A program made the translations under genes and the position numbers. A DNA stretch of 64,000 nt from Owenia fusiformis (taxonomy: Eukaryota; Annelida; Polychaeta; Sabellida; Oweniidae). Positions 11,101-59,509 of the stretch are shown in pieces. The notes beneath the pieces were generated by a model. That model worked only from the letters and a program-made list of their open reading frames with translations, did no database searches and was not told the origin of the DNA. The DNA lies in the NCBI GenBank assembly GCA_903813345.2, contig CAIIXF020000010.1, forward strand, positions 9,976,349 through 10,040,348. Reading direction: 5' to 3'. Every line of letters starts with the position of its first letter. The first letter of the stretch is position 1.

Positions 11101-14100
11101 TACCATGATATTAATTTGTCACATTAGATGTCATGTCATATTCTGTCACCATCGATGTCATGCAATGTCTACATCAAGCTGCATCACCTAAGAATAATCA
11201 ATTGATAAGAATAAATTATTATTTCACGATATAGTTGGATTAAAAGTTTCATTTTGATAGTGTGGAATTTGTGACAATCAATGTTAACCATTTAGTGATA
11301 TTATGTAATCATTTACATTATGCAATTTATCTGTTACAGAATAATAGATAACAAATGGCAAATTGAACAAAAACACCTAATTAAAACCAGACTAATTAAT
11401 AACCATTTCTATTTGAAATAATTACTGTTTAAATTCCCATGATTTTGAATTGCTCAAGGGTTGGTAGCAATTTGTTATTAATCAAAAAAGTAATTTGAAA
11501 TCCATAATCTTTTGATCACAACACAAAATGGAACATTTATGCCAATCTAGCACACATATTTAGCTGCTGGGGATATTCACATATGAGAAACATGTCAATG
11601 ATCATGGAGTCAAAATTTACATAAATATAGGGGGACAAAAATAAAAACTTTCATTCAAGAAGTATTATTTACCCAGTAAAGGACATATCAAATTTTTCAT
11701 ACTTAGTTCAAGGTAAGGCACAACCATAAATATTATATTATGTATGAGCATCAACACTTTTATCAAAAATGCAAATAACTTGTAAAAATTGAAAATCAAT
11801 AGAATTAAAAAACATTTTAAAGAAATCAAACAATGTAATTTAAAGAGCAATTCAAATTTCATATTTTAAAAGAAGTCTATCACCAAGACTCGTTTAAAAA
11901 TAGTTTAATCTCAAAGAAAATATAATATTATCTACATATTGAAGAAACAAAATCCATACAATACACCAATATGGCTACAAATGATAATTCAGACATAGCA
12001 AAAGTTTGAAAATTATTTTGGTGATTTTGTTTTTAATTTTATACTGTACCATCCCTCTAATATTTGATGTACATTCAATTAATTTCAGAGTACTTCCAAA
12101 TATGGGTAAATTAATAGTCGCAATCAACATCCTGGTATTTACCTACATGTCGCTAAAACTTGGCATGCAACAAATGAGGCAAAAGAACGTATTTGTGTGG
12201 CTCGTTGAAAATAATGTGGAGCATCTATTGCCCATACTACAAGAACATAGCATTCAGACATTGGAGGAACTGGCTGCTTTGGAGATGATGGATCTGAACT
12301 ATGAGACCCTAAAAGATGTTAACAAGGAGACTCGTTATCAAATTCTCAAAGTCAGATTAAAAGCGAGAAATGAGATTGCATTTAATATGTGGCTCCTAGA
12401 GAAACGTTTAACACCATTTCAACAGATAGCTCGAATAATAAAAAAATCTGTGTATGAATTCGCTGATATGTCTTCAAGGGAAATCAATGACGTCATCAGT
12501 GAGTATGTGGACTTAGCACATCAATCGACTTTGAGGGAGATGGTTGGTGACTTCAAATACGCTGTAGAAGCATTCAAGGACAACCATATGGAGGTGGTGT
12601 ACAAAAAGGAACAGTATACAAAAGTGATAAAACAGAAAGCTGGAAAGAGCTACCTTTGGAAACTTGGTGAATATCTAAATGATCACCCGATACAGATAGT
12701 ATTCACTATGATCCTTGTATGTTTGAACAATCTAGCAATTAAGTGGGCTGTCCCAACGAAAATACCAGCTAACACTCATATAGGTTTGAGCATAGCTCTT
12801 TTCTATTTCATGCCACAGATGGGGAGAATCAATCTCACGCTTGTAATATTATTCCGTAGTTTTGTTGATCCACTTGGAGCTCTGATCACTGGTATCGTTC
12901 TCGAGATGTGGATCACGATGATCACCATATATGTTGCTAACACCGGGAACCTTATTCCTATATCATTGGTACCAACAGTGCTGTTTTTCCTCTGTGCGTG
13001 GGCCTTAAAGCTACAACCACTCTACTGGTGTAACAAGAAATCTGACTCCGAGGTACTCGTTCTTTCTGGCATGGGCTGTGTTGACTCACATGTGAAGACA
13101 TACTTAACCAATGGGCGAATCAATCTACTTACTCGACTTATTGTTGGAATCAAATCAGATGAGAAAATAAAAGTGGAAAATGTTCATATTTTGAAAATTG
13201 AAGATGTCGACATGACAACAGCAATTGTTAAAGATGTTGTACTGCCATCTATTGAGAAAGGGAACCTTCGGGAGTTGTGGATCTTGAATAATCATGGCTT
13301 TACAAATGAAACAGCCAAAATGCTAGCTGGTCTTATGGAGATGCATCCCTCCCTGGAAAGCATCCATATCATGTTCAACAGACCACGGAACATCTTTGAA
13401 ATAATAATAAATATGCTCACCAGAGACAATGCACCCATAAAATTCAACAGTGATGGTGCAAAATCAATTCTTGATGCTGTTTACACAAACAAAAATAAGA
13501 ACATTAAAGCTGATGAAGGTGAACGAAATGTGAAAGTTCTGGACTTAAGAGGTGTTGAATTAGATGAGGAATTCCGTGACTTTGCCCATAAAATTAGTCA
13601 GAACATGGACATTAAGGTGATGGGTAGCAAAAATCCATCTGACATTTATATCAACTCCTTATGGTACAGAGTGGTACATAATCCTGTATTTAAGTACTCA
13701 ATTCAGTTTGCAATCCTGGCATTTTTCCTCTATCGTCTTTCACACCAAATGACTTTCTATAACTTTAATTAATATTTAATATGTTATTCAACAGTTTTCT
13801 CTGATGTATGTATGTATGTATTATTTATTTGCGTCTAAAAATTGGACAGTTACATATTATACAATGAAATAAAGAAAGTAAATTAAACATCATTTCAATA
13901 TAATTAAATTTAAATTCTCATCATTTCAATTTCTAGCTGGGAGCAAACTCTAGTAATACAAATGTTACAATCGAATATAAATAAAATCATGAACATGTAA
14001 TTTATACACCTGTATAGATTAAATAAAATAAAATAAATATTTGATATTGATTTAATCTACATGTATTATTAAGGTGAACATTAGTAACATTAATTACAAG

Positions 14101-30513: not shown

Positions 30514-31965
30514 ACCCTACCCCTATATTACTAAAGTCATCGGCAATCATATATATTGTGACATGTATCCTGTCTCTTTATAATAAAATTAGTCAAACTA
30601 CTACAACACAATCGAGCACAACCCAATAATAAACCAACCCAACACAGTCAACAAGATTAAAGTCAACTCTACTTATCATTTAACTAATTCATTTTGGCAC
30701 TACCTGACAAAAACCCTACCATAACACAACCAGGCTTAACCAAATACTCAATTAATTATACTCGATTAAATCAATTAATCAATTAAATCAAAACACAATC
30801 AGGCACACCCTATGAAACGGTGATATCAGTGACACGTCGCAAAAAGTTCGTGCACGTATTGTTACACTTTTTCGCTTCTCAACACCACAGAATGTGACGT
30901 TTTTTGAGAAAAATGTACAGACACGTCGCAAAAAGTTCGCGCGCGTATTGTTACACATTTTTGCTTTTCAACACCACAGAATGTGACGCTTTTTGAGAAA
31001 AATGTACACATATGGAAATCCTTTCGTCCTCCACATTTGCCTCTATATCTCAAAATATTTAAGGCGAATAACTTTGATATCGTATATGTATTAACAATGG
31101 GTTAGGAGCATCATTAAACACGAATCAATTTGTTATTTTAGGTGAAATAAATATATGTGTTGCTGTGTTTGAAAATAGGTGAATGGCGTAAATTCGCCCT
31201 ATTTTAATGAATTTTGAAAACCTTTCGTCCTCCATCCCTACCCTACCCCTATATTACTAAAGTCATCGGCAATCATATATATTGTGACATGTATCCTGTC
31301 TCTTTATAATAAAATTAGTCAAACTACTACAACACAATCGAGCACAACCCAATAATAAACCAACCCAACACAGTCAACAAGATTAAACTCAACTCTACCT
31401 ATCATTTAACTAATTCATTTTGGCACTACCTGACAAAAACCCTACCATAACACAACCAGGCTTAACCAAATACTCAATTAATTATACTCGATTAAATCAA
31501 TTAATCAATTAAATCAAAACACAATCAGGCACACCCTATGAAACGGTGATATCAGTGACACGTCGCAAAAAGTTCGTGCACGTATTGTTACACATTTTCG
31601 CTTCTCAACACCACAGAATGTGACGTTTTTTGAGAAAAATGTACAGACACGTCGCAAAAAGTTCGGGCGCGTATTGTTACACATTTTTGCTTTTCAACAC
31701 CACAGAATGTGACGCTTTTTGAGAAAAATGTACACATATGGAAATCCTTTCGTCCTCCACATTTGCCTCTATATCTCAAAATATTTAAGGCGAATAACTT
31801 TGATATCGTATATGTATTAACAATGGGTTAGGAGCATCATTAAACACGAATCAATTTGTTATTTTAGGTGAAATAAATATATGTGTTGCTGTGTTTGAAA
31901 ATAGGTGAATGGCGTAAATTCGCCCTATTTTAATGAATTTTGAAAACCTTTCGTCCTCCACTTTT
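30514..31965. repeat. Recent 726 bp tandem duplication
   Basis: 30514-31239 and 31240-31965 are almost identical; I see only a handful of base differences, for example TTCGCGCGCG against TTCGGGCGCG. Inside each copy an ~88 bp segment starting ACACGTCGCAAAAAGTTCG is itself duplicated. Very low divergence points to a young event, a length polymorphism or an assembly artefact. Confidence 0.9.
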
Positions 31966-35764: not shown

Positions 35765-38700
35765 CTACTTTCTCTGTACTTTCCTGGATTTTCCCCCTCC
35801 CATTCTTATTGGTGTATTGTCTGTTATGGACACTACATTCAGTCCTGCCATCTGCAGGCCCTTTATAGCAGGCTGAAAATGAAAGTACAATTACAACTAC
35901 AAACAAGCCATGAACATGGAAAATGTCACAGCCTGCCATTTGTTACAGGCATTATGTTATTTGTTACAGAAGCCGACCACCAAACTCTGAACACAAGCCG
36001 CCCATCGACAAAAAAGTTGGAGACTAGGCTATAACAATGTCATCTCTTGTGGTGGTGAAAGAAACACATTATCTATCCATAAGGGTTATGTACTGGGAGG
36101 TTTTGGATATGGGGTTTATCGAGAGGCATATATGCATATCTACCAGAGGGACCGAAGGTATATGTGCATATCTCACGAGGGATGAAACCCCATGGCCCAT
36201 ATCCAAACCGACCGTACATAATTTTTTCAAATATTTTTTTTCAAAAAGGATTGGTATTGATATGGTGAACTGAATTCAACACATGTTTCTCTTAAACCAG
36301 TCATCAAAAAATTCTGAAAATTTTATACATCGACAATCGAATGATCATCTTTTGAATGGTAACAGTTTAATTTGAAAAATATATATATACTTTTCTCTAT
36401 ATTGTTTTAGAAAATATATCAGACACTTCTTTTGTTCTTGGTATCATATGTTTAGAATTAAACGAAACCTCTATCCGAAACTCATTGGAACAAAACGACA
36501 TATACACAACGTGTTTAGGTCTCTCAATATTGTAATTGTACAAAGGATATTTTGGTTGATTCTAAAAAAGTATCTTCTTAATGAATCAAAAGGTTTACTT
36601 CAATTTTTATCTATTTTGGGTTTTTTGTTTTAATTTTTTGAATTCTTTTTGTTAAATCAACCAAATCTTCCTTATAGGTATAACTATAATTATATTGAGA
36701 GGTCTTGGAAAATGTTGTATATGCTATTTTGTTCCTACAAGATTGGGAAAGATATTTTATTCTCAAGAATTAATACTCAAAGCAAAAAAAACAATTGCAC
36801 TAAAATTCAAAAAAATTTTACAAAAAAAACAGTTCTAAAAAAATATATTCAAATAGTTTTCTGCAAAAGTAAGCTACAGACCCATGATGAGTCAATTTTA
36901 CAGAGTTAGTACAACAATGATCAATAGCTCGTAACTGCCCTGATTTTCTGATTTCTTATTTTTTGGCATTTTCCAATGAAGTTTTGCTTTTGGAATTCTG
37001 ACTCTATAAAACTGGTGTAAAAACTATCACCCAAGATATGTTTCCTATCTTCCCTAGTTCAATTGCAGATATCCAGTCACCATTTTAAAAGAAAATGTGA
37101 TAGCAGTCTTTAATGTATCCTTATCACGGTGTATAACCAAAACGCTCCTACATGCACGACGGAGCGTTTCATTTACGCGGAAACGCTCCGGAGCGAAATA
37201 AAATGGCGGCTAATGAAGATTCCACTATGACCGTAAGTATTGTTTCTCTCGCTTCTCTTACATATCATATGTTATGGTGAAATATTATGTACCATTCGAT
37301 GAACAATACCCCGAGCAAAGATCTTATTTATTCAACTTCTGGTGGTAAACTGTTATTTGCTTGATCAAAGCTCCGTAGTGTAGATCGAACGAATCTGAAG
37401 ATGACGATTTGCCCACAAATTACGAATTAAACTAGTATTTCTATGAAAACGTTAATATTTCTGTTAAAGTAGTAGATCACAAACTCGTATATTCTCATTT
37501 CTTAAAATCCCAGTCCAAATCCATTACTTGTTCTCAAGAAATCGCTTGTTTTCCTCGAATCGCTCCGTCGATTTAGAACACAATTTTAGAAACGCTCTTA
37601 CCATTTTGTTTTGATATCATTTTCAAATTATTAGAGAAGAGTTCCGAATCGAATCTATCTCTCAAAAACGTGTTGTACTTGTTAGGCAAATTGAAACATC
37701 TGAACCTGGTGGTGCAACTAGCTGATTTAAGCCTACATTAGATGATGTCATGCCTACATGTATGTTAGATCATAAAACTATAAAAAAAAAACGAAAATTA
37801 ATATATGAATTAATCTTTTTTCTTTTGATGCCAAGGAGTATAATAGATCTTAATTTCTTTCTCTTCCTGAAAAGGAAAGGCAAGCTATATATTTCCTAAA
37901 CAGATCTAGACTACCGGAGCGTTTCCAGTTCATTTTGTTAACCAGATCGGAGCATTTCTTGAATATGAGAATGTCATCATTTTTAAGACTGGATTTTCGG
38001 TGATCAAGTCACTATTACGATAATGTATGGTGCGTTGAAGCATTGGAATTTGACTAAAATATACGTTGGTGCTCTAATCTTGACTCAACTAATCACATGT
38101 ATCGACAGAATGGGTTTTGACCGGTAGAATGACAAATACGTTTTTGGATTTTGATAACTATACTGCTTCGTACAGCTCTTCCTAATTGCTTCAAACATCA
38201 ACAGCCAGCCAAGAACAACATGAATATCACACCCATCGAATGGTATACTCGAAATATGTAACTCATACCTCTTAATCCCATTATTGGGGAAATCGTCAGA
38301 CGGCTCATCATTCCCGCCAGCCAGTTTTCCTACTCCGGAGCGTTTCTTTGTTTAATTTTAGTAATGAAACGCTCCGTCGTGCATGTAGGAGCGTTTGGGT
38401 TATACACCGTGCTTATACTGACGTGAATAGTGTAAGCATATTTTCTGGTGAGAGTAATCTATTTTCTATACTTGGATAATTCAACACCTCATTGATAATG
38501 TATTTTTTGTTCTTGATTTGGGTTTTATAATCAAGGGCCAATATTATAGACAATGAAGTTAATAAATTCAGAAAACTAATAAGTTTGGCAAAGAGTTAAC
38601 CTACCAATCTTCCTGGTCCAAGTCCTTTCACTATGATCTTCACATCTCTTACTCCCTTTTCAAGGGCCTTCTGCAATAATAAATTACAAATATTAAGGGG

Positions 38701-41700
38701 TACTTTAAGGTGGGCAATGAAGAATGACATTTAGACACATGATATCAGTAATACTGTACAAGCAAACTTGGGTATCATTCTACTCTACCTACCTTAAAAA
38801 ATTTCAGATGACTTGTAAATGACCCACCTTGCTAAGAGAAATGGCAGCAGCCAAGGCAACAATATTGGTTATCATGCAATGTTTGTTGCCATGGGAACAT
38901 AACCTACCTTTTTAGGTAGGGTAATAGCAGCAGCCTTGGCAGCATTAAAAGTTATCATGGGGACACAACCTACATTGCCTAGGGAAATGACAGCACCTTG
39001 GGCAGCAATGTTGGGTACTATGGGGACACAACCTACCGTGCCTAGGGAAATGACAGCACCTTGGGCAGCAATGTTGGGTACTATGGGGACACAACCTACG
39101 GTGCATAGGGAAATGACAGCACCTTGGGCAGCAATGCTGGGTACTATGGGGACACAACCTACCGTGCCTAGGGAAATGACAGCACCTTGGGCAGCAATGT
39201 TGGGTACTATGGGGACACAACCTACGGTGCACAGGGAAATGACAGCACTTTGGGCAGCAATGCTGGGTACTATGGGGACACAACCTACCGTGCCTAGGGA
39301 AATGACAGCACCTTGGGCAGCAATGTTGGGTACTATGGGGACACAACCTACGGTGCATAGGGAAATGACAGCACCTTGGGCAGCAATGCTGGGTACTATG
39401 GGGACACAACCTACCGTGCCTAGGGAAATGACAGCACCTTGGGCAGCAATGTTGGGTACTATGGGGACACAACCTACCGTGCCTAGGGAAATGACAGCAC
39501 CTTGGGCAGCAATGTTTAGTACTATGGGGACACAACCTACCGTGCCTAGGGAAATGACAGCACCTAGGGCAGCAATGCTGGGTACTATGGGGACACAACC
39601 TACCTTGCAAAGAGGAGCTGCAACAGCTTGGGCAGCAATGTTGGTTACTATGGAGACACAACCTACCGTGCCTAGGGAAATGACAGCACCTTGGGCAGCA
39701 ATGTTTGGTACTATGGGGACACAACCTACCATGCCTAAGGAAATGACAGCACCTTGGGAAGCAATGTTAGGTACTATGGGGACACAACCTACCGTGCCTA
39801 GGGAAATGACAGCACCTTGGGCAGCAATGTTGGGTACTATGGGGACACAACCTACCATGCCTAGGGAAATGACAGCACCTAGGGCAGCAATGTTGGGTAC
39901 TATGGGGACACAACCTAGCTTGCAAAGAGGAGCTGCAACAGCTTGGGCAGCAATGTTGGTTACTATGGAGACACAACCTACCGTGCCTAGGGAAATGACA
40001 GCACCTTGGGCAGCAATGTTGGGTACTATGGGGACACAACCTACCGTCCCTAGGGAAATGACAGCACCTAGGGCAGCAATGTTGGGTACTATGGGGACAC
40101 AACCTACCTTGCAAAGAGGAGCTGCAACAGCTTGGGCAGCAATGTTGGTTACTATGGAGACACAACCTACCGTGCCTAGGGAAATGACAGCACCTTGGGC
40201 AGCAATGTTGGGTACTATGGGGACACAACCTACCTTGCAAAGAGTAGCGGCAGCAGCTTGGGCAGCAGTTTTGGTTACTATGGAGACACAACCTACCTTG
40301 CCTAGGGTAATAGCAGCAGCTTGGGCAGCAATGTTGGGTGCTATGGGGACACAACCTACCGTGCCTAGGGAAATGACAGCACCTTGGGCAGCAATGTTGG
40401 TTACTATGGAGACACAACCTACCGTGCCTAGGGAAATGACAGCACCTTGGGCAGCAATGTTGGGTACTATGGGAACACAACCTACCGTGCCTAGGGAAAT
40501 GACAGCACCTAGGGCAGCAATGTTGGGTACTATGGGGACACAACCTACCTTGCAAAGAGGAGCTGCAACAGCTTGGGCAGCAATGTTGGTTACTATGGAG
40601 ACACAACCTACCGTGCCTAGGGAAATGACAGCACCTTGGGCAGCAATGTTGGGTACTATGGGGACACAACCTACCTTGCAAAGAGTAGCAGCAGCAGCTT
40701 GGGCAGCAATTTAGGTTACAATGGAGACACAACCTACCTTGCCTAGGGAAATGACAGCACCTAGGGCAGCAATGTTGGGTACTATGGGGACACAACCTAC
40801 CTTGCAAAGAGTAGCAGCAGCAGCTTGGGCAGCAATTTAGGTTACTATGGGGACACAACCTACCGTGCCTAGGGAAATGACAGCACCTAGGGCAGCAATG
40901 TTGGGTACTATGGGGACACAACCTACCTTGCAAAGAGGAGCTGCAACAGCTTGGGCAGCAATGTTGGTTACTATGGAGACACAACCTACCGTGCCTAGGG
41001 AAATGACAGCACCTTGGGCAGCAATGTTGGGTACTATGGGGACACAACCTACCTTGCAAAGAGTAGCGGCAGCAGCTTGGGCAGCAGTTTTGGTTACTAT
41101 GGAGACACAACCTACCTTGCCTAGGGTAATAGCAGCAGCTTGGGCAGCAATGTTGGGTGCTATGGGGACACAACCTACCTTGCAAAGAGGAGCTGCAACA
41201 GCTTGGGCAGCAATGTTGGTTACTATGGAGACACAACCTACCGTGCCTAGGGAAATGACAGCACCTTGGGCAGCAATGTTGGGTACTATGGGGACACAAC
41301 CTACCATGCCTAGGGAAATGACAGCACCTAGGGCAGCAATGTTGGGTACTATGGGGACACAACCTACCTTGCAAAGAGGAGCTGCAACAGCTTGGGCAGC
41401 AATGTTGGTTACTATGGAGACACAACCTACCGTGCCTAGGGAAATGACAGCACCTTGGGCAGCAATGTTGGGTACTATGGGGACACAACCTACCGTGCCT
41501 AGGGAAATGACAGCACCTAGGGCAGCAATGTTGGGTACTATGGGGACACAACCTACGGTGCATAGGGAAATGACAGCACCTTGGGCAGCAATGCTGGGTA
41601 CTATGGGGACACAACCTACCGTGCCTAGGGAAATGACAGCACCTTGGGCAGCAATGTGGGTACTATGGGGACACAACCTACGGTGCATAGGGAAATGACA

Positions 41701-44462
41701 GCACCTTGGGCAGCAATGCTGGGTACTATGGGGACACAACCTACCGTGCCTAGGGAAATGACAGCACCTTGGGCAGCAATGTTGGGTACTATGGGGACAC
41801 AACCTACGGTGCATAGGGAAATGACAGCACCTTGGGCAGCAATGCTGGGTACTATGGGGACACAACCTACCGTGCCTAGGGAAATGACAGCACCTTGGGC
41901 AGCAATGTTGGGTACTATGGGGACACAACCTACCGTGCCTAGGGAAATGACAGCACCTTGGGCAGCAATGTTTAGTACTATGGGGACACAACCTACCGTG
42001 CCTAGGGAAATGACAGCACCTAGGGCAGCAATGCTGGGTACTATGGGGACACAACCTACCTTGCAAAGAGGAGCTGCAACAGCTTGGGCAGCAATGTTGG
42101 TTACTATGGAGACACAACCTACCGTGCCTAAGGAAATGACAGCACCTTGGGCAGCAATGTTGGGTACTATGGGGACACAACCTACCTTGCAAAGAGTAGC
42201 GGCAGCAGCTTGGGCAGCAGTTTTGGTTACTATGGAGACACAACCTACCTTGCCTAGGGTTATAGCAGCAGCTTGGGCAGCAATGTTGGGTGCTATGGGG
42301 ACACAACCTACCTTGCAAAGAGGAGCTGCAACAGCTTGGGCAGCAATGTTGGTTACTATGGAGACACAACCTACCGTGCCTAGGGAAATGACAGCACCTT
42401 GGGCAGCAATGTTGGGTACTATGGGGACACAACCTACCGTGCCTGGGGAAATGACAGCACCTAGGGCAGCAATGTTGGGTACTATGGGGACACAACCTAC
42501 CTTGCAAAGAGGAGCTGCAACAGCTTGGGCAGCAATGTTGGTTACTATGGAGACACAACCTACCGTGCCTAGGGAAATGACAGCACCTTGGGCAGCAATG
42601 TGTGGTACTATGGGGACACAACCTACCTTGCAAAGAGTAGCAGCAGCAGCTTGGGCAGCAATTTAGGTTACTATGGAGACACAACCTACCTTGCCTAGGG
42701 TAATAGCAGCAGCTTGGGCAGCAATGTTGGTTCCTTTTCTACTGTTCTTGAAACCCTCTATACCACATGAATTGTAGGCAATACCAGTTCCTATAAATAA
42801 TATTATCAAATATACTTGTAAATCTATATAGAATACAAGGTCAGGATCAGAAGTCATTGATGCCAGGATAAGGAAAAGACAAAACATCATGCCTGGAGGT
42901 CAAGGTCATTAAAAAAATAGTTGGATATAGAATTCTCTGATGGTCTTGCATTACCATTTAGCTCAATTCAAGCATTGACTTCCCTATTTTTCCTTCTAAT
43001 TCAACTTCTTTCCAACTTCAGCTTACGTATTATTATTTGAATTAGGCTAATTACCTTTTCAGAGTTTCTTAATGGTCAACAACTTTCATTTTTAATTGTA
43101 TATTTACCTTTATGTTCCTGTAGCGAGAGGATAGTATTGTTTGGTGTCGACTTAATGCTCACGAAATGTAATTCTGAATATTTTGTGCCACTGATTACCA
43201 TATTTGGAGTGTGCTTGGAAGGGGTCAATATTCCACCACTGAAAAATAGAAACCCATGGAATACAATTTGAGCACCTTGAAAATCGGAAATTAAGAAATA
43301 CATGTATTATTTAAGCAAATATGGCACCAATATTTTACATTAAATTAGTTGTGAGGAAGGGAAAACCATTGAATCAAGAAGGCATTAACACATCACCACC
43401 TGCCATTTGTTACAGATGCTGACCACCAACTGCAGACTGCCTTCACAAAATTATTGGAGACCATAACAATATTTCACCATAATTGGTGGATGGTGGTGAC
43501 ATAAAAATCCTACTATAATATTGAGAAAAGTAAATTGTGGGCATTAAATAATTAAGTATAATCTGTGTTATAAAAATTTGCTTTAGGTATCTAAGTCATG
43601 TCTTGGCTGCTGAGTGTTGAAGTAAAGGTGATTACGCAGTATTCCCACAAGACATCTTTTTTATTTGAATGAATGAATTTTTTAAGAGTCAACCTCCAAC
43701 AGCAGGAATTTTATTTCATAGCATTGATAATTATGTGAGGTACATGTACATGAAAAAGCTAAAAAAAAGTTAAAGTTCAATTTTTATGGCCTGGATAATA
43801 AGTCAGGCTTTGAGAGAAGTGAATATAACAAACCAAAATCTTATAAGGGTAGTTTATCATTATAGAGCCTCATTTCGGGTAACATTAAGTAGGGAGTCAG
43901 GGACCCAGCAAATATTCACCTATTTAAGCCCTCTATCACAGCGTCATTTTCTGTATTTAATGGATCATCCATAGGTTGGTAGCTCTTCCTCCTTCCAGCC
44001 TCTTCCAAAACTTTGTCCTTCCCTCTGACATCTTTATCCATGATGCAACAGGCAGGCTTTGTGTGGATGGATTTATGATTCCCCAAGACACCTAAAACAT
44101 TAATATTTCTAACATTAGATAGAGTGAAACTGTACAGTGTATTGAAAACCTGAAGAAATGAGTTTACAGGAAGATGTATCAGCAGAGTGCGGTATTCAAA
44201 TTGGGTAAGACATCACTTCAAATATTTCTTTAACATTTAATTGTAATAACATGTATGACTTAAAATAAATACTTTGGCTGAATTAATTGAAGGATTCATT
44301 GATTCATGATACAAATTATTAGACCCTTAAACCGTAAACACTGTCGCTGATATGTTCCAACTTACCTATAGATGGAGTAATGCCAGCCGACTGCTTCCAA
44401 AGCCCCCGGCATATACATGTGTAAGTTGCTCTAGATGTGAGACTTGCCAACATTTTCATCAT
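35765..44462 (-). CDS. MRPS11: Mitochondrial small-subunit ribosomal protein uS11m, six exons, complete
   Basis: uS11 lines the mRNA/E-site platform of the small subunit; the mitochondrial form acts in mitoribosomes. Exons in transcript order are 44462-44366, 44091-43920, 43238-43108, 42790-42690, 38670-38605 and 35872-35765, giving 224 residues (human about 194). All junctions are GT-AG and phase-consistent. The first ~33 residues are basic and hydroxylated, as in a mitochondrial targeting sequence. Domain matches are STPNNTILSLQ, SCGIEGFKNSRKGTNIAAQ, VKIIVKGLGPGRL and VVSITDNTPI. The C-terminus departs from the usual uS11 tail: after TDNTPI it reads RMGGGKSRKVQRK where PHNGCRPRKARR is expected. 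Intron 4 (38671-42689) is filled by a 63 bp array derived from the end of exon 4; intron 5 carries two mobile elements. Confidence 0.95.
36241..36800. mobile_element. Fold-back element, copy 1 of 2
   Basis: It matches the element at 62553-63284: 'ggattggtattgatatgg', 'gaactgaattcaacac' and 'gtttctcttaaaccag' appear in the same order. A partial inverted right arm ('atattgagaggtct', 'gttttgttcc'-like) folds back on the left. It lies in MRPS11 intron 5. Confidence 0.65.
37135..38411. mobile_element. 1.28 kb terminal-inverted-repeat transposon, non-autonomous
   Basis: 49 bp inverted ends (CACGGTGTATAACC start, one mismatch) are flanked by a perfect 5 bp target duplication CTTAT (37130-37134 and 38412-38416). 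The motif GGAGCGTTT or its inverse recurs about ten times in the subterminal regions, as transposase-binding repeats often do. No long ORF. It lies in MRPS11 intron 5. The superfamily is not assigned. Confidence 0.9.
38820..42728. repeat. 63 bp minisatellite copied from MRPS11 exon 4 and its splice donor
   Basis: About 60 units, plus one or two degenerate ones at 38820-38935. Read on the minus strand, each unit is the last 39 nt of MRPS11 exon 4 (codons for NIAAQAAAITLGK), the donor GTAGGT and 18 further intron bases. The exon-4 end itself (42728-42690) is unit one. Variants differ at the donor flank: GCACG, TTGCAAG and CATG before GTAGGT. One unit near 41657 has lost a base. In the MRPS11 frame the second unit has a TAA at 42663-42665, and similar TAA units recur near 40711 and 40839. 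Long ORFs on both strands (up to 615 codons) follow from the 3-divisible period. Confidence 0.95.
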
Positions 44463-55800: not shown

Positions 55801-57505
55801 CATCCTCCTGATGAAGTGTTACAGCATCCATTGCATTCTGAACAATGCACTGCCTGGGTGGCAATGAGGAAACATGGAATCATCAGTCCCTTTTGGTTCG
55901 AAGGTGACTGGGGACTTGCTATCACCATGAACAAGGACCAGTAAGTTCTCACCAAGTTTTGGAGGTCACTAAGCACCAGAAGGGACATCTAAGGAGATAA
56001 TTAAGCAGTGGTTTCAACAAGCCAATACCACCCCAACACTGCAAATGATATGCTGAAATGGTTTAGGCAATGCTTTGGTGGTCAGCTCATCAGTTGCAGA
56101 ACACAAACCATATGGGCAGCTCATTCGCCTGATCTAAATCCCCCAAATTTTTATCTTTGAGAATTTCTCAAAGCCAATGTGTATACTGACAGGCCCCTAA
56201 CAATCTTAAGAGGGCAATAACTACCCCAATATTTACCATCCACATTAATGTGTATAGGTAAGGGTCATTAACAACTTTGTTCGCAGGATTCATTATCATC
56301 AAACTTTCAGAACAAAATTCACATTGAATGAACTAAATGATTCTTAAATTTCAAGGCAAAATTGACCGAGTTATTCAACTTTCTTACGGTCCTGTTTTTT
56401 TGGACACCCTGTATTATTCATTAATTTAGCATTTTTAAAATATCTTTGTAAGATAAAAATCTAATAGTTGTAAATAGTTGTTTTAACTTATTACTTACTT
56501 CAGTCTCAACCTAAATAATAAATGTAAATTACAAATATATGTGTATAATACCCCAGTCATATAAAAATGAAGTTCAAATTATTTTCTGTTATATTCCAGG
56601 CAATTGGTGAGTTTGTCCTCTCTGAGCCAAATATCCGTATAAAGCCAAGAGGCAAGATCTATTCCCTCAATGAGGGATATGCTGCAATATGGGATGAGGC
56701 AACTAGGGAGTATATCAATAGCAAAAAGGACCCCAAGGTACAGTACAGGGCTTTCCATAGGCAACCTATTTGAGCATACCCTTGCCATATCTAGAACTGT
56801 ACCATGTTCAAGCTTCAAATAGATTAAATCTGTTTGCCTAGTACAGTACATTGAAAAGTATATGTGAACATTCACTAAAATGTGTGTTTGTTACATCTCA
56901 TGACATTGAATTAAATGTTGTGAAAAACTTATCAACTCCAACTAAAATACATGCAAGTATAAGATAAGCAATAGAGTCCATGTATTAAAATCATTCACTG
57001 TGACACTCTTTTGAATCAATTCAACATGTTGGTCAATTTCCCTAAAAGAAATATCTTCTGATCTGTATAGTAAAATTAGTTTTTAAGTTCTATACATGGA
57101 AGTCTATAAAGTATTGCTACAGCGTGGGAAGTTGTATGTTGCAATGCACAGTACATTGTTTTTTTAACATAAACATCAAAATTGTATTTTCTCCAGTGTG
57201 GCAAACCCTATGGTGCAAGGTACATTGGTTCAATGGTGGCTGATGTACATAGAACTCTGGTGTATGGAGGAATATTTGCATACCCAGCAACCTCAGCCAA
57301 TCCTAAAGGAAAATTGAGGCTCCTGTATGAATGCAATCCAATGGCTTACGTCATAGAAAAGGCGGGAGGAATGGCCACGACTGGTACTCAACGAATTCTC
57401 GATATCGTTCCTGAATCAATCCACCAGAGGTCGCCTATATTCATGGGATCAAAGGAAGACGTACAAGATGTCATAGACATGTATAAAAAACACGGAAAAA
57501 GCTGA
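46806..57505 (+). CDS. FBP1: Fructose-1,6-bisphosphatase with alternative exons 4a/4b, complete
   Basis: It hydrolyses fructose 1,6-bisphosphate to fructose 6-phosphate and phosphate in gluconeogenesis and is a cytosolic enzyme inhibited by AMP. Exons are 46806-46981, 50033-50195, 50659-50751, then 53050-53193 (4a) or 53851-53991 (4b), then 56600-56737 and 57197-57505. The product is 340 (4a) or 339 (4b) residues; human FBP1 has 338. All splice sites are GT-AG. Metal-site residues are visible: Glu100/Glu101 (LVSEE), Asp121 and Asp124 ([11 protein letters not shown]) and Glu283 (LYECNPMAY). The AMP-loop region ATGDLTQL is in exon 1. Substrate-site stretches [15 protein letters not shown] and KAGGMATTG are intact. 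FBP1 rather than FBP2 orthology is only nominal, since invertebrates usually have one gene. Intron 1 is 3 kb; intron 4 hosts a mariner relic. Confidence 0.97.
47773..47868. repeat. Perfect 40 bp inverted repeat with 16 nt loop
   Basis: Arms 47773-47812 (starting accatgggcttccagagatc) and 47829-47868 are perfectly complementary. It is in FBP intron 1, so it would be transcribed as a hairpin. It could be a very young fold-back insertion or a small-RNA precursor; nothing in the sequence decides. Confidence 0.9.
49660..49718. repeat. Perfect 22 bp hairpin with 15 nt loop
   Basis: Arms 49660-49681 (tcactggtgatccactcgat..) and 49697-49718 pair perfectly around the loop cgctgtttaccaggg. It lies in FBP intron 1, about 315 nt before exon 2. 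The size is short for an animal miRNA precursor. Confidence 0.9.
50967..51077. mobile_element. Short fold-back with ~50 bp arms, plus a partial third arm
   Basis: Arms 50967-51016 and 51027-51077 pair with few mismatches ('aaatactggatgaccatgag' and its inverse). The inner part of the right arm ('tcgaggataggtattct') is repeated at about 51162. FBP intron 3. Confidence 0.8.
51489..52787. mobile_element. Inverted-repeat element with tRNA-like cargo and nested palindromes
   Basis: Outer ends resemble those of 5983-6490: 'tctctccaaaacgcaa' at the left and 'ttgcgtttcggagagagg' at the right. Inside is a second inverted repeat (51577-51620 with 52326-52371, 'ggatcttgtacacctgccat'). Within that is a third, 51842-51863 with 51922-51943 ('atgacctgaatcgattgcaa'). 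A tRNA-like gene lies at 52442-52507. FBP intron 3. Confidence 0.75.
52442..52507 (-). tRNA. tRNA-Asp-like sequence (GTC), probably a pseudogene
   Basis: On the minus strand the acceptor TGCCTGG pairs with CCTGGCA at six of seven positions. The D stem GTAC/GTGC pairs with one wobble, and the T arm CCGGG-TTTGAAT-CCTGG is well formed. The anticodon loop CTGTCAC gives GTC (Asp). The 3' half of the anticodon stem does not pair, and the stretch to the T stem is a few bases short. A T-run follows the 3' end. It is probably a mobile relic inside the 51489-52787 element. Confidence 0.6.
53050..53193 (+). CDS. FBP1: FBP alternative exon 4a (48 codons)
   Basis: Acceptor ttttattag, donor GTAAGT, phase 0 at both ends. 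It encodes [15 protein letters not shown] through [19 protein letters not shown] to VNGFMLDP. It aligns with residues about 143-189 of human FBP1 (recalled), including the [11 protein letters not shown] core. It is one codon longer than exon 4b in the loop after the MIVLA strand. Confidence 0.93.
53851..53991 (+). CDS. FBP1: FBP alternative exon 4b (47 codons)
   Basis: Acceptor attcatcag, donor GTAAGG, phase 0 at both ends. It encodes [15 protein letters not shown] through [19 protein letters not shown] to VNGFILDP. It shares the core of 4a but differs at many other residues, so it is an old duplicate kept open. Including both 4a and 4b would keep frame but insert a second copy of a core segment, so mutually exclusive use is expected. 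Confidence 0.93.
54661..54796. mobile_element. 136 bp MITE with TACAGTAAAATCTG ends
   Basis: TACAGTAAAATCTGTGTAAG at the left and TTTACTGGTTTACTATA at the right are decayed inverted repeats. Interior 'gtgttccactta' is shared with the copies near 1200 and 59173. FBP intron after exon 4b. Confidence 0.65.
55501..56413 (+). pseudogene. Mariner-like transposon with broken transposase
   Basis: The ends TACAGGGTGTCCAAAAAAAA and TTTTTGGACACCCTGTA with ~100 bp subterminal inverted repeats define a 913 bp element at a TA. Inside, on the plus strand, fragments such as [19 protein letters not shown] (about 55852-55910) and [13 protein letters not shown] (about 56118-56157) match the DDE-transposase patterns GIIGPYFFE and PRSPDLTPLDFFLW as I recall them. 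Stops and frameshifts break the frame, so it is dead. FBP intron before exon 5. Confidence 0.85.
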
Positions 57506-59509
57506 AGGATCGGACTTACGTAGTCATTATTACTCTTGTAGCAAAATTTAGAATTTTATTGAAAACTCTTTAATTGATGATTCAGATTGATATGAGTATC
57601 AAGTATTTACCCAAGAATGGAGTGTTCATTCAGAAATCTCATTCCATTGGTTATATCTAGGGCAATCTTATTGCATTGGTTATATCTAGGGCAATCTAAT
57701 TGCATTGGTTATATCTAGGGCAATCTTATTGCATTGGTTATATCTAGGGCAATCTAATTGCATTGGTTATATCTAGGGCCGAGCAATGCTACAATTCCTA
57801 ATACTTATAGACATGCATAAGCTAGTTAGTTATATGAAGAGAATAAGTGTGTTTTAACACTTTTTCTCTTAGTTTTTAAAGAAATATTGATAAAATTTTG
57901 AATTTGGTTATATGGGTACATGTACGAGTATAAACTATAACATTTCAATGGTATTAGGGATTTAACATGATATTACAAATGGCCTGAACTACTGTATTTA
58001 CATTAATCATTCATTAAATATAACACATGAATTTTGTTGCTCAGTTAATGTGATATTTGGTAAAAAAGAAACAACATGTAAGTGCCATATCTTTTGTTGT
58101 ATCACACTGGGTAGAATATATACACAAAAGTAACAGTATAATGTACACACAAATGAGTTTCAAATTCTTTGCACCATGCTCACCTTAATAGTAGCATTAA
58201 TTAAAAAGTTAATTTATCTTCATACTACAGGGTTTCATTATTTCATAATATCATCTATGCTGTCAATGTGATATTTTATTAAGGTGATTGTAAATAAAAG
58301 GATGATGGACAATAAAAAAACTATTGTGTTTTAATGATAGAGGTAGACCAATTCCAACAGTTAACATCAAATTGAGGGTATATTTTTCAATATTTTTTTC
58401 TCATAGCATTTTATGTCAAAGTTAAAGTTTTGACTTTTATTTCAATTGATCAATTGTGGCAGTTATCTGGTAATGAGCTTAAAAAGTTTCCTTTTTTTAA
58501 TTCTAATGATTTTACAAAATTTTGCAGCTTAAATGTATTTAAAAATTGCTTGCGACATTCTCTGCCCATTCTTTAGTCCCAATTTAAATACTCAAACCTC
58601 AGGAAGCCATAGGTCAAGGTCAAACTGTAGGTAAAATCAGTAATTTTATCTTAATTGTAATTGTAGATCGTATACTATCACTACAACAAATATCACAAAA
58701 AATTTCAAGAGAGCAAACAAAAAATTTCAAAAAGGCCTTGGTTAAGCTTCGATAGTGTTTGAGAACCCCTATTTCTACTATTGAAAATGGATTCTAGCAA
58801 TACTATTCCACATGAATCTACTTGTTGCGACTTGATCAACTTGAGTTCTTTTGAGATAATGAGGATTTTCTATCTATCCTCATGTTAACAACATACATGG
58901 TGGTATCCCCATGTGAAGTCAATGCATCCTTGCTGAAATCCTCATTTAAGTATATGTTTTGGTTATGATGTTTTAGTCTCTAAAATATTGAAAACACTGA
59001 ATTTTATAGAAACACATGTAATAGAGGAAACACTCAAATTGATAGAAGTGAAAGACATTCAGACCCATATCATGAACCCTGCTTGCAGTCTAGTTATAAA
59101 CTAAAGAAGATGAAGCTCTCTTTTAAGAAGTGAAGTCGAACGAATGCAAAGGGTACATATCATGATAAACGTGCAGTAAAACCTGTGTTTGCGAAACATA
59201 TTTGGTTTTTATAAATGAGTATCAATTGGAAGGTGTTCCACTTATTGAAACTCAATTAAAAATGGGTTACTGGATTATGAAGTCTTCATTAGAGGTGTTC
59301 CACTTGTCAGGTTTTACTGTATTTTTATATTTTATCTTACTTTTAAATGTGTTCCAATATAAGGTGTTCCACATATGGACGTTCAATTAACCTCAAGGCA
59401 ATGGGTCATGGCATCTTCAGAGATAAGAAAAATGTCATTGACATTGAGTATTATGTTGTATTTAAATCAGTATCTCGACTTGCATTGTTATCATTACATT
59501 GGAGGTAAA
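57506..59509. other. FBP 3' region and spacer to the lysozyme gene
   Basis: It contains five copies of a 29 bp tandem repeat (57641-57780, 'attgcattggttatatctag' core). Possible FBP poly(A) signals AATAAA are at 58293-58298 and 58311-58316, about 790 nt after the stop. A 45 bp stretch at 59110-59153 is shared with 28768-28812. A MITE is at 59173-59321. No additional gene seen. Confidence 0.55.
59173..59321. mobile_element. 149 bp MITE with CAGTAAAACCTG ends
   Basis: CAGTAAAACCTGTGTTTGCG at the left and GTCAGGTTTTACTGTA at the right are inverted repeats; it belongs to the family at 4794, 35148 and 54661. It ends about 190 bp before the lysozyme start codon. Confidence 0.8.

Follow-up and report, generated by a model that had tools for sequence, protein, structure and literature searches.

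We found that intron 4 of MRPS11 contains a minisatellite of about 60 units, each of which copies the end of exon 4 together with its splice donor, and that at least seven further genes of this genome, among those examined, carry arrays of the same type. The explanation that we favor, with a probability of roughly 0.85, is that the array is a tolerated, expanding boundary minisatellite of the kind called 'mirages', whose first donor is used. The analyzed window is a stretch of 64,000 nucleotides (G000:C10:9976349-10040348) in a 498-Mb assembly, and positions below are those of the window unless another locus is named.

The numbering of the MRPS11 exons follows a first-pass annotation made from the sequence only, and the present model, located on the minus strand, spans part of exon 3 to exon 6. 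The part of exon 3 matching uS11m (LHFVSIKSTPNNTILSLQEHK; 43108..43171) was placed by alignment to pig MRPS11 and is followed by the donor GTAAAT. Exon 4 (42690..42790, 101 nt) was identified by matches to Pfam Ribosomal_S11 and to MRPS11 in PDB; its 3′ end is AACATTGCTGCCCAAGCTGCTGCTATTACCCTAGGCAAG, and its last 39 nt form unit 1 of the array. The genuine 5′ splice site of this exon (donor 1; GTAGGT at 42684..42689) was assigned from an ungapped alignment to pig MRPS11 across the exon 5 junction. Exon 5 (38605..38670, 66 nt, phase 0, donor GTAGGT) and the last coding exon (35765..35872, PAIKGLQMAGLNVVSITDNTPIRMGGGKSRKVQRK, stop TAG, acceptor TTTTCAG) were supported by Pfam and PDB matches of the joined exons. 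Joined exons 4 and 5 matched mammalian MRPS11 at 1.1e-15, and joined exons 3–6 matched Pfam Ribosomal_S11 at 4.8e-22. With exon 4 (donor 42689) joined to exon 5 (acceptor 38671) in this model, the match to pig MRPS11 was 1.2e-30, and the 108 residues aligned with no gap. Exons 3–6 are intact and encode uS11m, in agreement with the earlier naming of the gene and of exon 4. The gapless alignment to the pig protein indicates that the conserved protein requires a single copy of the unit and, by homology, that the ancestral junction is at donor 1. A whole-genome search with PF00411 gave matches on C9 only and missed MRPS11, which has short exons.

The array was the top-scoring tandem repeat of the window in TRF (38957..42730, minus strand; period 63, 59.9 copies, 87% matches, score 5631), the second-best score being 1048. 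The 63-bp unit consists of the 39-nt tail of MRPS11 exon 4 and the first 24 nt of the intron. Locating units by a word covering donor positions +1 to +11 gave 61 minus-strand split sites (42689 to 38907), and 58 of the 60 spacings were 63 bp, with one of 62 bp and one of 66 bp; this unbroken spacing indicates that no interior unit was missed despite the word-based search. Unit 1 is the genuine end of exon 4, and intron 4 (38671-42689) is mostly array. The copy number, the composition of the unit, and the origin of the array from the exon-donor boundary, all of which the first-pass annotation had claimed, were thus borne out by TRF and the unit table. Unit 61 (38884..38946, minus strand) is diverged and has the donor GTAGGTTATG at 38907. 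Beyond it, local alignment revealed one more degenerate exon-tail copy (38822..38866, minus strand; donor GTGGGT), which scored 35 compared with 22 for the best of 500 shuffles, and which also lies within the interval 38820-42790 originally assigned to the array. Unit 61 and this degenerate copy are the old 3′ edge of the array. A 301-bp probe comprising exon 4 and the first units had at least 27 matches in the genome, including itself, all at the MRPS11 locus.

Classification of the units revealed the order, read from the exon, ABCDCCDABCDCCCCCCCCCCDCCDABCDCBCBCDCCCABCDCCDCCCCDCCCCCCCCCEF. Class A is that of the exon unit and comprises units 1, 8, 26, and 39; units 26 and 39 are the same as the exon unit at all 63 positions, and unit 8 matches it at 62. 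One non-exon class holds 39 of the 61 units and encodes NIAAQGAVISLGT-like peptides. The mean pairwise identity of units 1–60 was 88%, and near-identity to the exon is limited to units 8, 26, and 39. Runs of as many as seven consecutive units occur more than once, with no more than one difference in each unit, and the most diverged copies sit at the 3′ edge. We read these features as those of an old array that was expanded by multi-unit exchange involving the exon's own unit. A coding array was considered and rejected: the minus strand is open in some frames, but the MRPS11 frame stops at unit 2.

Several other features were observed in the window. An ORF for a fructose-1,6-bisphosphatase C-terminal domain lies at 57173-57505 on the plus strand (Pfam, 7.1e-45), and TRF detected a 29-bp array of 5 copies 130 bp downstream of it (57635-57779). 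TRF also detected two closely similar pairs, each an 89-bp tandem duplication, at 30831-31008 and 31557-31734, 726 bp apart. The plus-strand ORF at 11988-13772 had no Pfam family, and neither did nine of ten other ORFs of the window.

Other donor-bearing arrays were searched for in the genome with two motifs. A loose pattern of three AGGTRNGT words at 48–78 bp spacing gave 2037 + 1697 matches, compared with 1516 + 1744 for the reversed word, and the raw counts were hardly enriched; the matches listed name seven arrays, located in the first 12 Mb of C1. With the strict pattern AGGTAAGT, 675 matches were obtained, compared with 380 for the reversed pattern, and the matches listed name 13 arrays on C1–C3, two of which are common to the AGGTRNGT list. 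The union of the two lists, 18 arrays beyond that of MRPS11, was inspected in full. By eye, 14 of them (L003–L008, L010, L011, L014, L015, and L017–L020) start within an apparent coding exon, at its donor, and extend into the intron. The peptides of these 14 were chosen by eye with the donor frame known; L010 was open in two frames, and its peptide was a guess. In seven of the 18 arrays, the exon bounded by the first donor matched a Pfam family above the curated cut-off, namely BLOC1S5/Muted (L004, 5.9e-15), NAD kinase (L005, 1.2e-20), Rieske_4 (L007, 3.4e-8), and NIF phosphatase (L011, 4.3e-6) on C1, the HSP70 family (L015, 2.3e-6) and a ligand-gated channel (L017, 2.4e-15) on C2, and MRPL52 (L020, 3.4e-7) on C3. 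The exon of L003 on C1 was tetraspanin-like at 0.058, below the cut-off, and those of L006, L008, L010, L014, L018, and L019 had no Pfam match; a PDB search with the exons of L014 and L003 also gave no match. The remaining four arrays were searched with one peptide (L016) or one edge-crossing ORF each (L009, L012, and L013) and showed no exon and no Pfam match. A donor-like array is therefore not always a boundary array.

For comparison, thirteen arrays were listed with the reversed word, of which 12 (13 loci) were taken, the simple repeat at C1:20774102 being left out; L022 and L023 were excluded as having no usable array edge. Two of the longer edge-crossing ORFs of each of the ten control arrays were searched, with the edges of L031 set from match positions and the L029/L030 array represented by L029 ORFs only. 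None of the ten arrays and none of the 20 ORFs exceeded the Pfam cut-off, and four sub-threshold matches were obtained. The difference between 7/18 donor arrays and 0/10 controls gave a Fisher P of 0.027, a comparison in which the eye-picked donor peptides favor the class. If a 60-bp unit meets a donor with a probability of 2.4%, which assumes one donor per 2.5 kb, the chance of 7/18 is about 1e-7, a figure to which the same choice of peptides contributes. The view that such a boundary array is unusual is not supported for this genome, with its seven other Pfam-supported cases, and the MRPS11 array is a long but otherwise typical case.

The number of such arrays in the genome was roughly estimated. 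Among the first matches listed, there were 10 exon-like AGGTAAGT arrays in 101 Mb and six exon-like AGGTRNGT arrays in 12 Mb, which by extrapolation correspond to roughly 50 and roughly 250 arrays genome-wide, respectively; both values are rough, as the two motifs catch only part of the donors and other donor words and periods are uncounted. A hand count revealed six or seven arrays capable of yielding a triple in 124 kb, with two in 60 kb of arbitrary sequence and five, including that of MRPS11, in the window. With these arrays born at random and an assumed donor per 2.5 kb, a few hundred donor arrays are expected. This figure is of the same order as the extrapolations, and a donor-specific mechanism is therefore not needed, while an excess of a few fold at donors would also be compatible with the counts.

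These estimates bear on the possibility that the birth of the arrays is coupled to splicing, with 5′ splice sites acting as hot spots of tandem duplication, to which R-loops or paused transcription might, for instance, give rise. The exon-anchored position of 14 of the 18 arrays by eye, seven of them with Pfam support, the excess of AGGTAAGT over its reversed pattern, the two extrapolated numbers from partial motifs, and the smaller number of exon-like acceptor arrays on C1 described below are consistent with such coupling. On the other hand, AGGTRNGT showed hardly any excess, chance predicts donor arrays in numbers of the same order, and the sensitivities of the motifs differ. We consider coupling to splicing unlikely.

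Arrays with acceptor words were also found. Triples of TTTTNCAG gave 543 + 512 matches, compared with 182 + 306 for the reversed word, and most of the matches listed belong to dispersed repeat families. Among 12 acceptor arrays picked by eye as lying outside repeated families, two on C1 (L042 and L045) had an exon-like end. These arrays, at positions 1-468 of L042 and 80-265 of L045 in the acceptor orientation, have a 2OG-Fe(II) oxygenase-like exon (0.0015) and a laminin-G-like exon (0.037), respectively, both below the Pfam cut-off, and they seem to copy the 3′ splice site and the exon start into the upstream intron. Both types of boundary, donor and acceptor, probably occur in arrays. A dispersed fold-back-like family was also noted in the genome, with TTTTTCAGTACAT subrepeats of about 48 bp in opposite orientation approximately 1.5–3.5 kb apart (pairs at G000:C1:293555/296192, 1625795/1629196, 6229545/6231119, and 15153967/15157461).

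The quality of the repeated donors was evaluated. GT at the donor position is kept in 60 of the 61 units and AG|GT in 21. Recursive splicing at the AG|GT units was considered, and nothing was seen that favors it. Against the U1 consensus CAG|GTAAGT, 21 units, including donor 1, match at 7 of 9 positions, 34 at 6, and 6 at 5. The candidate donors, earlier called near-identical, are thus unequal in strength, and only 21 of 61 equal the score of donor 1. Donor positions +1 to +11 contain one variant in 660 cells of units 1–60 and form the least variable 11-column window of the 63. This near-invariance, with GT lost in a single unit, could hint that selection maintains the donor copies, for instance as additional U1 sites that aid the definition of exon 4 or protect the long intron from early polyadenylation. 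Homogenization explains it equally well. Variation lies largely at class-specific columns, and the invariance may therefore be inherited. Moreover, the donor window from −3 to +6 ranks only 31st of 63 for variability, and conservation of the donor as such is therefore not established. U1 binding would also not explain the acceptor arrays, which seem to exist, with exons below the Pfam cut-off. Maintenance by selection is accordingly regarded as very unlikely.

The reading frame was examined with regard to the proposal, made in the first-pass annotation, that the choice of donor switches between functional and degraded mRNA. In a regulated form of this switch, donor 1 would give functional mRNA, the array donors would give mRNA that is degraded, and the length of the array would set MRPS11 output. 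The premise concerning the stop codon was correct. Unit 2 opens with a TAA in the MRPS11 frame (42663..42665, minus strand), eight codons past exon 4. This is the first in-frame stop after donor 1, and since it sits in unit 2, the use of any later donor would include it. The 21 donors that equal donor 1 also fit a switch, as does human IFI6, for which the available part of one source reports use of downstream units (PMC4526556). Productive use of later donors should be reflected in unit lengths that preserve the frame. In the class of 15 arrays, consisting of the 14 exon-like arrays and that of MRPS11, the period is a multiple of three in six, with five expected (P = 0.38). A stop occurs within 25 codons past the first donor in 12 of the 15, as expected of unselected intron, and the stop in MRPS11 needs no selection. 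Published mirages, as far as the accessible text of the amphioxus report goes, seem not to disturb splicing (PMC3087553). A regulated switch is highly improbable on these grounds.

The frames remain open in L003 (332 codons), L005 (374 codons), and L006 (160 codons), where later donors could be productive. The L006 array (2171-2673, unit of 33 bp, peptide VSPNAHSFDTE) is in frame with its exon over those 160 codons and may belong to the coding sequence, as a repeat within it, instead of to an intron. In the NAD kinase gene, the domain continues in the exon that follows the array, and the alignment of 75 residues to 73 profile positions shows no insert the size of a unit. The simplest reading of the class has splicing from the first donor, with the other copies tolerated as intron sequence. 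That the length of the array was invented or inflated by the assembler is hardly credible: tandem arrays this long are hard to assemble, but the units differ from one another in an ordered block structure, the window contains no N, and independent genes share the anatomy.

The tolerated boundary minisatellite may have arisen as follows. A short tandem duplication would once have copied the end of MRPS11 exon 4 and its donor into the intron, and unequal exchange would then have expanded this duplication to about 60 units in multi-unit blocks, sometimes including the exon's own unit. Since every additional copy is downstream of the genuine donor, splicing most likely proceeds from the first donor, which adjoins the exon defined by the spliceosome, and the array would be removed with the lariat. 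If a later donor were occasionally used, the message would contain the TAA of unit 2 and would probably be degraded; the array would otherwise be neutral.

A wider proposal is that mirages form a genome-wide class, hundreds strong, outside lancelets and preferentially at 5′ splice sites, in which the first donor is still chosen among dozens and the exon's coding end can be altered by unequal exchange. We regard it as doubtful, with a small but appreciable chance of being correct. Genes with boundary arrays are ready-made tests of 5′ splice site choice among many similar sites in a row; if the first donor always wins, this would support an exon-anchored choice over the choice of the donor nearest to the acceptor. 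In such a class, the coding ends of exons would also be open to copying by repeats of the adjoining intron and hence to fast change at conserved positions. In the open-licence literature, no paper was found on competing identical 5′ splice sites.

Arrays of this type have been described in other organisms, contrary to the initial impression that they are unusual in general. The primary Adh paper on amphioxus mirages is reportedly Canestro 2002. According to the available portions of a later report, mirages are tandem duplications of exon-intron boundaries, both 5′ and 3′, found in amphioxus Adh3 (in two Branchiostoma species) and in the globins BflGb6 and BflGb9; they show length instability, and RT-PCR suggests regular splicing (PMC3087553). 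Their units measure 10–72 bp in Adh3 and 150–160 and 157 bp in the globins, with copy numbers of 6 and 3 in two globin haplotypes (PMC3087553), and mirages are also mentioned in PGBD5 and troponin C in the accessible part of a further article (PMC3902484). Similar to these, the MRPS11 unit spans the exon-intron boundary, with 39 nt of exon and 24 nt of intron, and its 63 bp lie in the minisatellite range; many but not all units keep AG/GT, the genuine exon is intact, and the array runs into the intron with repeat turnover within it. Unlike them, as far as that report is available, MRPS11 has about 62 copies instead of 6 and 3, and its exon unit has identical counterparts in the interior of the array, whereas the boundaries of mirage clusters escape homogenization (PMC3087553).

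The GC content was 33.8% in 60 kb of arbitrary sequence of the genome analyzed here; Branchiostoma has a higher GC content and many GFP genes. A GFP-family profile search of the genome gave no match, and none of 14 control genomes matched either. Mitochondrial COX1, a mollusc haemocyanin domain, and an arthropod cuticle domain were likewise looked for and not found; as with GFP, the control genomes had no match for the two domains, and these three negatives are therefore weak. If the host is not a lancelet, the class reaches wider than the lancelet-only use of the name 'mirage' in the available parts of the sources above.

The minisatellite of human IFI6 (6-16) has a unit of 12 bp. In the available text of one article citing Turri 1995, it is a splice-donor minisatellite of which two downstream units are used as donors, giving rise to isoforms (PMC4526556). 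MRPS11 resembles it in having a minisatellite of splice-donor copies directly after the exon and differs in that its later donors are predicted to bring a stop codon, not isoforms. In potato RdRp, a new intron was made by tandem duplication according to the AGGT model, as stated in the accessible part of the source (PMC4974935). There, as in MRPS11, a tandem duplication across an exon-intron boundary multiplies splice signals; unlike in potato, the MRPS11 array is contained within an intron, with no sign of a new one. The MRPS11 array belongs to an already published kind, that of the mirages, with IFI6 as a short-unit relative.
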